Below the pieces are notes generated by a model. That model was not told the origin of the DNA. It saw only the letters and a list, made by a program, of their open reading frames with translations, and made no database searches. The position numbers and the translations under genes are program-made. Positions 40,348-45,685 of a DNA stretch of 64,000 nucleotides are shown piece by piece (the first letter of the stretch is position 1; each line of letters starts with the position of its first letter). Source of the DNA: Alphaproteobacteria bacterium (GTDB taxonomy: Bacteria > Pseudomonadota > Alphaproteobacteria > Rhodobacterales > Rhodobacteraceae); NCBI GenBank assembly GCA_030424645.1, contig JAUHWP010000001.1, positions 1 through 64,000 of the forward strand, in the 5' to 3' direction.

Positions 40348-40370
40348 GCTTTCAGGATTATCCATCCCGG

Positions 40371-40404
40371 AAACGGCCTGCCATTCGGCGGGCCGTTTCT
40401 TTTT
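40371..40404 (+). terminator. Intrinsic terminator of acpP
   Basis: An eight-base outer stem (AAACGGCC/GGCCGTTT) with a further inner pairing is followed by CTTTTTG, 23 bp after the acpP stop. Confidence 0.85.
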
Positions 40405-41439: not shown

Positions 41440-42702
41440 ATGCGTCGAGTGGTCGTGACAGGTCTGGGTATGGTTTCGCCTCTTGCGTGCGGGGTCGAGG
41501 AAACCTGGAAACGCATTCTGGATGGGCAGTCGGGCGCGGGTCCGATCACCAAGTTCGATGCGTCACGCGTGGCCACCAAATATGCCTGCGAAGTTCCGCT
41601 GGGCGACGGGTCGGACGGCACGTTCAACCCCGATGACTGGATGGAGCCGAAAGAGCGTCGCAAGGTCGATGATTTCATCCTGTACGGGCTGGCTGCGGCG
41701 GAAATGGCTGTAAAAGATGCCGACTGGTTGCCGGAGGATGAAGAAAGCCGGTTGCGCACGGGCGTGATGATCGGATCGGGGATCGGTGGCCTGGCGACCA
41801 TTGCCGAAACGTCGATCACGCTGAACGAGCGGGGCCCGCGCCGCGTGTCGCCGTTCTTTATTCCCGGTTCGTTGATCAACCTGGTGTCCGGCCAGGTGTC
41901 GATCAAGTTCGGCTTCAAGGGGCCGAACCATTCTGTCGTCACCGCCTGTTCGACCGGTGCGCACGCGATTGGCGATGCGTCGCGGCTGATTCAGACGGGT
42001 GATGCGGATGTGATGATTGCCGGTGGCGCAGAAGCCGCGATTTGCGAGCTTGGGATCGCCGGGTTCAACGCGTGCAAAGCGCTGTCCACCAAGGCCCAGA
42101 ACAACCCGCAAGCGGCCAGCCGTCCCTATGACGTCGATCGTGATGGCTTCGTGATGGGGGAAGGCGCTGGAATTGTTGTTCTGGAAGAATACGAGCACGC
42201 CAAGGCCCGCGGCGCAAAGATATATGCCGAGGTGTTGGGCTATGGTCTGTCGGGCGACGCCTATCACATCACTGCCCCGTCCGAGGATGGCGATGGGGGC
42301 TTTCGCGCGATGAAAGCCGCGCTGGCCAAGGCAGGGCTGGAGCCGTCTGAGATCGACTATATCAATGCGCATGGCACCTCGACCATGGCGGATACGATTG
42401 AACTGGCGGCGGTCGAACGTCTGCTGGGGGATGCGGCGGAAAAAGCGACGATGAGTTCCACGAAGAGCTCAATCGGGCACCTGCTGGGGGCCGCGGGTGC
42501 CGTCGAGGCGATTTTCTGCATCCTGGCATTGCGTGATCAGATCGCACCGCCGACGATCAATCTGGACAGCCCTGCCGTCGAGCCGCGCCTTAGCCTTGCC
42601 GCGAACAAGGCCGAGCCGCGTGAGATCAATACGGTTCTGTCCAACAGCTTTGGTTTTGGCGGCACCAATGCAAGCCTGATCATGGGCAAGGTCTCTGACT
42701 GA
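41440..42702 (+). CDS. fabF: 3-oxoacyl-ACP synthase II
   Basis: A 420-residue condensing enzyme that elongates acyl-ACP with malonyl-ACP. The start ATG 41440 (MRRVVVTGLGMVSPL) follows AAAGG. Catalytic triad: Cys in VTACSTGAHAIG, His in NAHGTSTMAD and His in SSIGHLLGAAG, with the Lys just before. Its stop overlaps the mltG start by one base (TGATG). Part of fabD-fabG-acpP-fabF. Confidence 0.96.
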   Translation: MRRVVVTGLGMVSPLACGVEETWKRILDGQSGAGPITKFDASRVATKYACEVPLGDGSDGTFNPDDWMEPKERRKVDDFILYGLAAAEMAVKDADWLPEDEESRLRTGVMIGSGIGGLATIAETSITLNERGPRRVSPFFIPGSLINLVSGQVSIKFGFKGPNHSVVTACSTGAHAIGDASRLIQTGDADVMIAGGAEAAICELGIAGFNACKALSTKAQNNPQAASRPYDVDRDGFVMGEGAGIVVLEEYEHAKARGAKIYAEVLGYGLSGDAYHITAPSEDGDGGFRAMKAALAKAGLEPSEIDYINAHGTSTMADTIELAAVERLLGDAAEKATMSSTKSSIGHLLGAAGAVEAIFCILALRDQIAPPTINLDSPAVEPRLSLAANKAEPREINTVLSNSFGFGGTNASLIMGKVSD

Positions 42703-43862
42703 TGTGGCGCAATATAGCCTCGAACGCGCTGAGCCTGTTCGTTGTCATCATGATTGTCGCAATCGGGATGATCGCGTGGGGCAAGCGCCAATACACCAAC
42801 CCCGGCCCGTTGACCGAAGCGATCTGTCTGCGGGTTGAAAGCGGGTCCAACTTTTCGCGGGTTGCCAACAGCCTGACCGATCAGGGTGCAATTTCGAATG
42901 CCACGATATTCCGTCTGGGGGTCGAGTATTCCGACAAGAAATCCGAGCTGAAAGCCGGATCGTTTCTGGTCGGGGAAGGGGCCTCGATGCAAGAGATCGT
43001 CGATGTGGTCACGCGCGGCGGCGCCTCGACCTGCGGCACTGAAGTCGTGTATCGGATCGGCGTTCTGGCCTCTGAGGTGCAGGTGCGGGAACTGGACCCG
43101 GCCACGCAGGCATATCAGGTGACGGCCGAGTTTGATCCGGCCGCCGCGGAAGGGTCCGCGCCCGAGACCTATGTCAAGGTGCGCAATGAAAGCGACACGC
43201 GCTATCGGATCGCTTTGGCGGAAGGGGTGACAAGCTGGCAGATCGTCGACAGCCTGAATCATGCGGATTTCCTGGCCGGGGATGTGACCGAAGTGCCAGC
43301 AGAAGGCACCTTGGCCCCCGACAGCTATGAAGTAAGAGTGGGGGCGGACCGTGCCGCGCTTCTGGCCAGCATGCAGGCCGCGCAGACCGAGATCCTTGCC
43401 CAGGCATGGGAAGCGCGCGCGCCGGATCTGCCCTATGACAGCCCGGAAGAAGCTTTGATCATGGCGTCGATCGTGGAAAAAGAAACGGGCGTGGCGGAAG
43501 AACGTCATCAGGTGGCCAGCGTCTTCGTCAACCGTCTGAACCAGGGGATGCGATTGCAGACAGACCCCACCGTTATCTACGGCGTGACCAAAGGGCAGGG
43601 CGCGCTTGGACGGGGATTGCGGCAAAGCGAACTGCGTTCGGAAACGCCGTATAACACCTATGTCATCGACGGGTTGCCACCCACACCGATTGCCAACCCC
43701 GGTCGGGCCGCCATCGAAGCCGCTTTGAACCCGGATGCAACGGATTACATCTTCTTCGTGGCCGACGGCTCGGGCGGGCACGCGTTTGCCACAACACTGG
43801 AAGAGCACAATCGCAATGTCGCGAAATGGCGCGAGATCGAGGCGGAGCGCGCGAACCAGTGA
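42702..43862 (+). CDS. mltG: Endolytic murein transglycosylase MltG
   Basis: A 386-residue single-pass membrane enzyme (LSLFVVIMIVAIGMIAWG) that cleaves nascent glycan strands and sets chain length. The YceG domain has the catalytic Glu in ASIVEKETGVAEERHQVASVF and the following RLNQGMRLQTDPTVIYG and NTYVIDGLPPTPIANPG. It overlaps the fabF stop by one base, the usual alphaproteobacterial fabF-mltG pair. It is the last gene before the GTA cluster. Confidence 0.94.
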   Translation: MWRNIASNALSLFVVIMIVAIGMIAWGKRQYTNPGPLTEAICLRVESGSNFSRVANSLTDQGAISNATIFRLGVEYSDKKSELKAGSFLVGEGASMQEIVDVVTRGGASTCGTEVVYRIGVLASEVQVRELDPATQAYQVTAEFDPAAAEGSAPETYVKVRNESDTRYRIALAEGVTSWQIVDSLNHADFLAGDVTEVPAEGTLAPDSYEVRVGADRAALLASMQAAQTEILAQAWEARAPDLPYDSPEEALIMASIVEKETGVAEERHQVASVFVNRLNQGMRLQTDPTVIYGVTKGQGALGRGLRQSELRSETPYNTYVIDGLPPTPIANPGRAAIEAALNPDATDYIFFVADGSGGHAFATTLEEHNRNVAKWREIEAERANQ

Positions 43863-43911: not shown

Positions 43912-43940
43912 TTGACAGAACGCGCGGTCCCTCGTAGGGT
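43912..43940 (+). promoter_or_regulatory. Sigma70-like promoter upstream of the GTA operon
   Basis: TTGACA and TAGGGT are spaced by exactly 17 bases. The -35 is consensus; the -10 matches three of six. The predicted RNA would start near 43947, about 100 bases before the first GTA gene and some 20 bases before an intrinsic terminator. In R. capsulatus the GTA operon is activated by GafA and needs CtrA; no binding sites for these were identified. Confidence 0.55.
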
Positions 43941-43967
43941 CTGACATACGCTAGAAGACGTGACTGT

Positions 43968-44001
43968 AACGGCCTTGGGCATCCGCCCGGGGCCGTTTTT
44001 T
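43968..44001 (+). terminator. Intrinsic terminator in the GTA leader
   Basis: AACGGCC/GGCCGTT outer stem with GGGC/GCCC inner stem is followed by a run of T. It ends mltG transcription and also lies between the predicted GTA promoter and GTA gene 1, so GTA transcripts from that promoter would have to read through it. Confidence 0.8.
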
Positions 44002-44044
44002 CATGTCGCTCGTGCGGAGAAGAGCATGAGAGGCAACGACAATA

Positions 44045-44395
44045 ATGACAATGATCACGCCCTTGGGGAAGGACGCGGCTTCGGAAGAGTATCTGAAGAT
44101 CGCGGACGCGTTTTTTCTGCGCGTTTTGAAAGAGCTGGACCGCCAGTTGAGCGCGGCGGAACTGGCCGATTGCGAGACCACACCGGGATTGGCGAAAGCC
44201 GTGACCGAGGTGCGCCGTGCCATGCAAACAGTATTCGAGGAAAGGAAACGTCTTGAACAAAGTGGTAGCAATGCCTTTGGCGGTGCCGGGTCAGGAGCAC
44301 TCGACCTTGCTGAGGCCCGGGATGAAATCGGGCGCAGACTGGCTTGCCTGCGCGACGCAAGAGGAGCAGGCAGCGTTTCTGAACAACCTGACTGA
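44045..44395 (+). CDS. GTA gene 1: small terminase subunit-like
   Basis: A 116-residue helical protein (KDAASEEYLKIADAFFLRVLKELDRQL) at the position of RcGTA orfg1, which encodes the small terminase that recognises DNA for packaging. In GTAs packaging is nearly sequence-independent. It overlaps the 5' end of the large terminase gene by about 140 bases. Start ATG 44045; ATG 44051 is also possible. Recognition relies on position and general helix pattern, with modest sequence support. Confidence 0.72.
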   Translation: MTMITPLGKDAASEEYLKIADAFFLRVLKELDRQLSAAELADCETTPGLAKAVTEVRRAMQTVFEERKRLEQSGSNAFGGAGSGALDLAEARDEIGRRLACLRDARGAGSVSEQPD

Positions 44396-45671
44396 CAATG
44401 CGCTTGCGGCCTTGCCCTATCTGTTCGAGTTCTGGGCGCTGGATCATCAGTTGCCGCCTCAGGGCGATTGGCGTTCGTGGGTGATCATGGGCGGGCGTGG
44501 GGCAGGCAAGACCCGGGCCGGATCGGAATGGGTGCGCGCCCAGGTCGAAGGGGCGGGTCCGTTTGACCCCGGTCGCTCGTCCCGGGTGGCATTGGTGGGG
44601 GAAACCATTGATCAGGTGCGCGAGGTCATGATCTTCGGCGACAGCGGGATCATGGCCTGCGCGCCACCCGACCGGCGCCCCGAGTGGCAGGCCGGGCGTC
44701 GCCGTCTGGTCTGGCCCAATGGCGCGGTGGCACAGGTGTTTTCGGCGCATGAGCCGGAAAGCCTGCGTGGTCCTCAGTTCGACGCGGCCTGGGCCGATGA
44801 ACTGGCCAAGTGGAAGAAGGCCGAGGACACATGGGACATGCTGCAATTCGGTTTGCGGCTGGGCGACCATCCGCGGCAATGTATCACCACCACGCCGCGC
44901 AATGTCGGGGTGTTGAAGGCGATCCTTGGGAACCCGTCGACCGTGGTGACACAAGCACCGACCGAGGCCAACCGGGCGTATCTGGCAAAAAGCTTTCTGG
45001 ACGAGGTGCGCAGCCGGTATGCCGGTTCGCATCTTGGGCGGCAGGAACTGGACGGCATGCTTGTCGAGGAAACCGAAGGCGCGCTGTGGGCCATGGCTAT
45101 GCTGGACAAGGTGCGTGTCGCGGGTGATCTGCCCGCGTTCGACCGGATCGTGGTGGCTGTCGATCCACCGGTTACGGGGCACAAGGGATCGGATGATTGC
45201 GGGATCATCGTGGCCGGTGTGGTGGCGCAAGGCATGCCGGGAAACTGGCGCGCGGTGGTGTTGGAAGATGCCAGCGTGTCTGCCGCCACCCCGTCCCAAT
45301 GGGCGGAAGCGGCGATTGCGGCCATGCAGCGTTACACTGCCGACCGTTTGGTGGCCGAGGTCAACCAGGGGGGCGACCTGGTGGAAAGCGTGATCCGGCA
45401 GGTCGACCCCACGGTTCCGTTTCGTGCAGTGCGCGCCAGGCGGGGCAAAAGCGCACGGGCCGAACCTGTCGCGGCCTTGTATGAACAGGGCAGGGTCACG
45501 CATGTGCCGGGGATGGACGTGCTTGAAGACCAGATGTGCCGCATGACGGTGCATGGATACGAAGGCAAGGGCAGCCCCGACCGCGTGGATGCGCTGGTCT
45601 GGGCCTTGCACGAGTTGATCATCGAACCCGTTGCCAAATGGCGCAGGCCGCAGGTGCGTTCGCTGGGTTAA
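44253..45671 (+). CDS. GTA gene 2: terminase large subunit
   Basis: The packaging ATPase-nuclease, with Walker A GGRGAGKTRAG, acidic Walker B in FDAAWADELAKWKKAEDTW, and the nuclease acid in IVVAVDPPVTGHKGSDDCG. The start is unsure: TTG 44253 has AGGAAA upstream (472 aa), ATG 44322 also fits, and ATG 44217 has no ribosome site. It overlaps gene 1 in a different frame. It packages host DNA fragments into the GTA capsid. Confidence 0.93.
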   Translation: MNKVVAMPLAVPGQEHSTLLRPGMKSGADWLACATQEEQAAFLNNLTDNALAALPYLFEFWALDHQLPPQGDWRSWVIMGGRGAGKTRAGSEWVRAQVEGAGPFDPGRSSRVALVGETIDQVREVMIFGDSGIMACAPPDRRPEWQAGRRRLVWPNGAVAQVFSAHEPESLRGPQFDAAWADELAKWKKAEDTWDMLQFGLRLGDHPRQCITTTPRNVGVLKAILGNPSTVVTQAPTEANRAYLAKSFLDEVRSRYAGSHLGRQELDGMLVEETEGALWAMAMLDKVRVAGDLPAFDRIVVAVDPPVTGHKGSDDCGIIVAGVVAQGMPGNWRAVVLEDASVSAATPSQWAEAAIAAMQRYTADRLVAEVNQGGDLVESVIRQVDPTVPFRAVRARRGKSARAEPVAALYEQGRVTHVPGMDVLEDQMCRMTVHGYEGKGSPDRVDALVWALHELIIEPVAKWRRPQVRSLG

Positions 45672-45685
45672 ACAGTTTTTTAACC
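45666..45685 (+). other. Hairpin across the terminase stop codon
   Basis: Perfect seven-base arms GGTTAAA/TTTAACC enclose CAGTTT and include the TerL stop codon. No long T run follows. It may mark partial termination or RNA stabilisation within the GTA operon. Confidence 0.35.

Follow-up and report, generated by a model that had tools for sequence, protein, structure and literature searches.

Architecture of the GTA leader

The window, i.e., the whole 64,000-nucleotide stretch of DNA analyzed here, belongs to a genome close to Aliiroseovarius, with a terL gene 86–88% identical to those of several Aliiroseovarius species. Gene transfer agents (GTAs) are domesticated viruses that carry host DNA from cell to cell. 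The GTA cluster of the window begins with terS (g1, small terminase subunit; 44,045–44,395, plus strand), which place and tblastn identify as the orthologue of R. capsulatus g1, and terL (g2, large terminase; 44,217–45,671, plus strand; Pfam Terminase_6N and 6C), the true start of which may be internal. The upstream neighbor is mltG (42,702–43,862, plus strand; Pfam YceG, NCBIfam TIGR00247), and the 182-base gap between mltG and terS holds a promoter motif followed by a hairpin with a T-run.

All elements of this leader lie on the plus strand. The promoter is composed of a -35 element, TTGACA (43,912–43,917), a 17-base spacer, and a -10 element, TAGGGT (43,935–43,940; family consensus TA[GT]Ann). 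Within the spacer lies ACGCGCG (43,920–43,926; family consensus GCGnACG), by its position a candidate site for the GafA C-domain. Transcription is predicted to start at A43948, and the initially transcribed block GCTAGAA (43,950–43,956; family GCT[AG]G[AG]A), conserved across the aligned leaders, leads into the 5' arm of an outer stem, GACGTG (43,957–43,962). The leader terminator, t1 (43,968–44,001), comprises the stem-loop AACGGCCTTGGGCATCCGCCCGGGGCCGTT at 43,968–43,997, with 13 pairs and a predicted energy of -24.9 kcal/mol, and TTTT running to 44,001; it has the form of an intrinsic (Rho-independent) terminator, a GC-rich hairpin directly 5' of a coding-strand T-run. Downstream of t1 are the 3' arm of the outer stem, CATGTC (44,002–44,007), and a second hairpin, CTCGTGC...GCATGAG (44,009–44,030), which adjoins the Shine–Dalgarno-like GAGAGG (44,028–44,033) of terS and may influence its translation. 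Compared with shuffles, the complete leader has a folding z-score of -4.4.

The -10 element matches the consensus at three of six positions, and the promoter is missing from the list of a consensus scan; the observation therefore needed comparative support. Taken in isolation, the window promoter is weak evidence, and it is conservation that makes the case.

Two other structured sites were noted in the window. A further strong terminator-like hairpin, with 14 pairs and TTTTT, occurs on the plus strand at 40,369–40,400, and an AT-rich perfect inverted repeat, GGTTAAACAGTTTTTTAACC, atypical as a terminator, spans the terL stop (45,665–45,684), with similar repeats in L005 and L012.

Conservation of the leader across Rhodobacterales

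To assess conservation, the leaders of 80 related terL loci were retrieved and aligned, and a covariance model, R1, was built from the leaders of 51 relatives. In the window genome, R1 identified the GTA leader as the sole credible site (E 5.6e-26, model E-values being rough). The model matched 72 of the 80 related loci, and the comparison bore out the original prediction of TTGACA-N17-TAGGGT followed by t1 ahead of terS: the same layout recurs across the family, where its stems show compensatory changes. On a broader scale, of 395 Rhodobacterales genomes scanned with R1, 301 have the leader element; they span 122 of 140 genera, and the genome assigned to R. capsulatus is among them.

The 5' part of the family plan reads TTGAC(t), GCGnACG in the spacer, TA[GT]A, CA and GCT[AG]G[AG]AGA; the 3' part consists of a GC hairpin, five to eight T, CATGTC or CATTTC, the second hairpin, and terS. 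TTGAC is present in 70 of 77 plus-strand R1 matches, the few exceptions including chance partial matches. A set of 46 non-redundant leaders was selected on TTGAC, which is hence found in 100% of them by construction. Among these leaders, the C and G columns of the spacer element are 89–96% conserved, the TA of the -10 element is invariant, and an invariant A lies two bases 5' of GCTAG at the right distance from the -10 element. This is A43948 in the window, so that a start placed beforehand near 43,947 holds for the region and is shifted to the invariant base, and the expected size of the terminated RNA, about 55 nt, becomes a predicted ~54 nt. A simple sigma-dependent pause element was also considered for the GCT[AG]G[AG]A block and gained no clear support; the position matching the key A of a -10-like pause element may be A or G and is G in about half of the species.

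The sequence of the t1 hairpin varies between genera while its pairing is kept, with a median energy of -21.7 kcal/mol over 70 scanned leaders (including one false site, L024). As a test unbiased toward the hairpin, a pattern that stops at GCT[AG]G, before the hairpin, was run against a viral collection. A hairpin with a T-run followed in 30 of 30 GTA loci found by this promoter-only pattern; by the same lax criterion, 83 of 600 dinucleotide shuffles also had one. Apart from two chance matches, all hits in the collection were GTA clusters, and the scan found no GTA leader in real phages. In the course of this search, some 30 contigs of the viral collection (L182–L184, L186–L212) were recognized as Rhodobacteraceae GTA clusters rather than phages, several with mltG attached.

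In other alphaproteobacterial families, R1 gave partial matches only, to the generic terminator part. At terL loci outside the family, a nearby terminator was mostly absent, and many of these loci may be prophages rather than GTAs. No extra leader copies were found within host genomes, second R1 matches being generic terminators, and an Rfam search at the gathering score and at E up to 10 returned no credible family, the best weak match lying far below threshold. The leader layout is single-copy and always in cis with the GTA.

Transcription start and the R. capsulatus orthologue

One genome (L146) was assigned to R. capsulatus on the basis of a capsid protein 100% identical to chain Rcc01687 of PDB 6tb9. 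Its leader follows the full family plan, with a hairpin of -17.7 kcal/mol and six T, and its predicted start lies ~94 nt upstream of g1. In this species, GafA was reported to bind a fragment 76–125 bp upstream of g1 that holds the -10 element and the RNA-seq start (Fogg 2019; PMC6363796), and the predicted start falls within this interval. The promoters of the window and of RcGTA are orthologous. Both GafA binding and the GafA dependence of the GTA are published for R. capsulatus (PMC6363796, PMC9638019); the binding was to a 50-bp fragment, and the conserved spacer element GCGnACG falls in the matching interval.

Since the published R. capsulatus start is at the orthologous place, GTA transcription there begins upstream of the terminator. 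The RNA-seq start supports the original prediction that this promoter drives the GTA, and with it the claim that GTA transcripts must pass the terminator; a start downstream of the terminator, which would have spoken against both, is not what the orthologous system has. Text searches of PMC6363796 and PMC9638019 found no mention of a terminator between the RcGTA start and the first gene, and the leader terminator and its conservation appear to be new to the literature.

Covariation of the leader stems

RNAalifold returned no structure on the raw alignment because of gaps in the hairpin; pairs were therefore assigned by hand and then counted. For the t1 stem and the outer stem together, standard pairs occupy 89.4% of cells in alignment A1, compared with 81.3% for shuffled partners (none of the 500 shuffles reaches the observed value) and 39–61% when the arms are slid; both-side changes occur in 12 of the 13 pairs. 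Shuffle and covariation counts are uncorrected for relatedness, which the slid control keeps. The outer stem alone is paired in 89.5% of cells, with 5 of 6 pairs changed on both sides, and the second hairpin (44,009–44,030) in 90.5%, versus 21–66% when slid. All three predicted leader stems thus covary in the alignments.

The outer stem joins RNA 5' and 3' of t1, and so it would form only in readthrough RNA. Its conservation in turn suggests that RNA spanning t1 is made, matters, and is under selection.

Loss of t1 and a second terminator after terL

The terminator is not retained everywhere. In two Roseovarius loci (L077, L078) and one Thalassovita locus (L054), t1 has been lost while the promoter block or the GCTGGA block is kept, which means that t1 is dispensable there and that a gate at this site is not universal. 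As natural t1 deletions, these three loci are useful experimentally. The clade around L102–L107, in which t1 is likewise dispensable, has a different hairpin without a T-run and retains the promoter and GafA. More broadly, a distinct GTA leader characterizes the clade of L098, L102, L103, L105, L106, L107 and L112; most of these loci carry, in place of t1, CTGTAACGGAAGTTTCCTTACAG-like hairpins, again without a T-run, near terS. The terL gene was still present in 20 of 20 model-negative or weak genomes tested, and some of the model-negative or weak genomes keep a diverged hairpin (L094, L108).

GafA (DUF6456) is encoded in the window genome and in 41 of 41 family genomes tested. Loss of t1 through loss of gafA was accordingly rejected on the basis of these genomes, which among the t1-less loci are those of the L102–L107 clade.

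A scan of 71 loci from before terS onwards revealed two concentrations of terminators, one at the leader and one in the first 250 nt past the end of terL, with 31 in the latter bin versus 1–4 in later bins. This second conserved terminator, t2, likewise of the intrinsic type, is found in about 31 of the 71 loci and also in R. capsulatus, where it lies ~150 nt past the end of terL, just before the g3 start; it is absent from the window. It was noted in the interval from terL (g2) to the portal gene (g3) in L013, L021, L022, L025, L028, L029, L057, L060, L061 and L066, among others. Where t2 is present, the structural genes are preceded by two terminators, which argues for processive antitermination over a single leaky stop.

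GafA and a proposed terminator gate

The closest characterized precedent is Caulobacter GafZ, a homologue of the GafA C-domain, which loads between the -35 and -10 elements, travels with RNA polymerase and NusA/E/G, and passes terGTA behind the first gene as well as rrnB T1; its authors suggested that GafA might share the antitermination activity (PMC11150451). Like the window locus, the Caulobacter crescentus GafYZ system combines a GTA core promoter, a DUF6456 factor, and an early intrinsic terminator to be passed. However, terGTA consists of three 150-bp repeats behind the first gene, and the leader is ~250 nt long (PMC11150451), whereas the window leader has a simple hairpin ~20 nt past the start. 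In Caulobacter the -35 element is degenerate (AATCAT) and GafY/IHF are needed to initiate; the consensus -35 of the window would fit control after initiation. The similarity of the spacer element GCGnACG to the Caulobacter palindrome is confined to the left half of the latter. Antitermination in GTAs is also the subject of a Bartonella paper, as it is cited in PMC13236601.

A similar logic is known from lambda Q at pR'/tR' and from AlpA, where a terminator right behind the promoter yields a short leader RNA by default and the factor loads from a DNA element inside the promoter (partly general knowledge, partly PMC11150451). No homology to these systems is claimed for the window leader, and GafZ itself is reported to have no sequence or structure similarity to Q or AlpA (PMC11150451).

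Considering the architecture of the leader, we regard as probable a terminator gate in which termination at t1 is the default and GafA confers processive antitermination. RNA polymerase would start at A43948 from the promoter with its consensus -35 element and, by default, would stop at t1 and release the ~54-nt RNA. GafA, when present, would bind the promoter between the -35 element and the start and join RNA polymerase, and the GafA-loaded polymerase would pass t1, and t2 behind terL where present, and transcribe the entire GTA operon. The outer stem around t1 and the second hairpin near the terS Shine–Dalgarno could then fold in the readthrough RNA. Antitermination has been demonstrated in Caulobacter; for the window leader, we infer that t1 stops transcription in vivo, that GafA is dispensable for promoter firing, and that the antiterminator of the family is GafA. 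On the other side, GafA has been described as an activator that recruits polymerase via omega (PMC9638019), and such recruitment may suffice without antitermination. As suggested at the outset, such a gate may relate to the activation of GTAs in only a few cells; the published model places this variability upstream, at the control of gafA.

Alternative explanations

Two alternatives turn on the relation of t1 to upstream genes. In five loci (L014, L025, L027, L057, L061), mltG is followed by its own hairpin and T-run, upstream of the GTA promoter. Six loci (L019, L030, L039, L048, L060, L069) have the leader, and mltG was not found within 3 kb upstream of it; in L039, which has the highest-scoring leader among the fetched loci, a bicarbonate transporter gene (Sbt_1) lies upstream in divergent orientation. 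Thus, t1 is independent of mltG or of a co-directional upstream gene.

The alternative that survives best, though we consider it unlikely, is that t1 mainly insulates the GTA by blocking readthrough from upstream genes (mltG, fabF), with GafA-driven polymerase passing it through strong initiation or because the terminator is leaky. The co-directional mltG upstream in the window and many relatives agrees with this, as does the fact that Aliiroseovarius usually lacks another terminator between mltG and the GTA promoter. An insulator, however, would more naturally be expected 5' of the promoter, the constant spacing between t1 and the start ties t1 to the promoter, and neither the separate mltG terminators of L025, L027, L057 and L061 nor the divergent gene of L039 is what this explanation predicts.

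A different role for the leader, which we rate as quite improbable, is that the readthrough RNA, through its outer stem and second hairpin, constitutes a cis-acting antitermination RNA like the put/EAR elements. The leader RNA would then work with GafA so that polymerase passes later terminators, e.g., t2, and if this were true, a promoter-loaded protein and an RNA element together would control the GTA across a whole bacterial family.

The ~54-nt RNA could also be the functional product, a regulator or sponge, with readthrough as ordinary leakage. The precedent comes from the same family: the R. sphaeroides small RNA UpsM arises from a promoter and an intrinsic terminator in the 5' leader of dcw, whose downstream genes are reached by readthrough of about 1 in 100 (PMC5089854). 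The conserved 5' block GCT[AG]G[AG]AGA is in line with such a role. UpsM differs, however, in its operon, in its much longer leader (206-nt RNA), and in having no known antiterminator (PMC5089854). Moreover, the outer stem, present only in readthrough RNA, largely accounts for the conserved positions +10 to +15, the element invariably occurs in cis to the GTA, and the second operon terminator would be left unexplained, which makes a small-RNA function very unlikely.

A classical attenuator or riboswitch, in which the leader RNA switches between terminator and antiterminator folds, is barely credible: the leader is structured, with conserved stems, but these are nested and compatible rather than forming a mutually exclusive antiterminator fold, and the ~20 nt between start and hairpin offer no segment that pairs with the terminator arms. 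Finally, that t1 is the ordinary 3' terminator of mltG, by chance behind the GTA promoter, as had been allowed at the outset, agrees with its position 106 nt 3' of the mltG stop but is refuted as a full explanation by the loci without mltG, the divergent gene of L039, and the separate mltG terminators of relatives, and retains next to no probability.

Implications for GTA expression

The terminator gate, with GafA as antiterminator, thus remains the reading that we favor, and under it the GTA genes of most Rhodobacteraceae can probably be expressed only when RNA polymerase is helped past a stop in the leader, within ~50 nt of the promoter. No GTA promoter is better studied than that of RcGTA. 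If t1 works, reporter fusions and qPCR downstream of it cannot separate activation from antitermination, and GafA-dependent expression would need rereading. The question raised by the Caulobacter work, whether GafA is an antiterminator, becomes testable in R. capsulatus by a small mutation of the hairpin. If t1 works, antitermination would be a common, phage-like logic of alphaproteobacterial GTAs.
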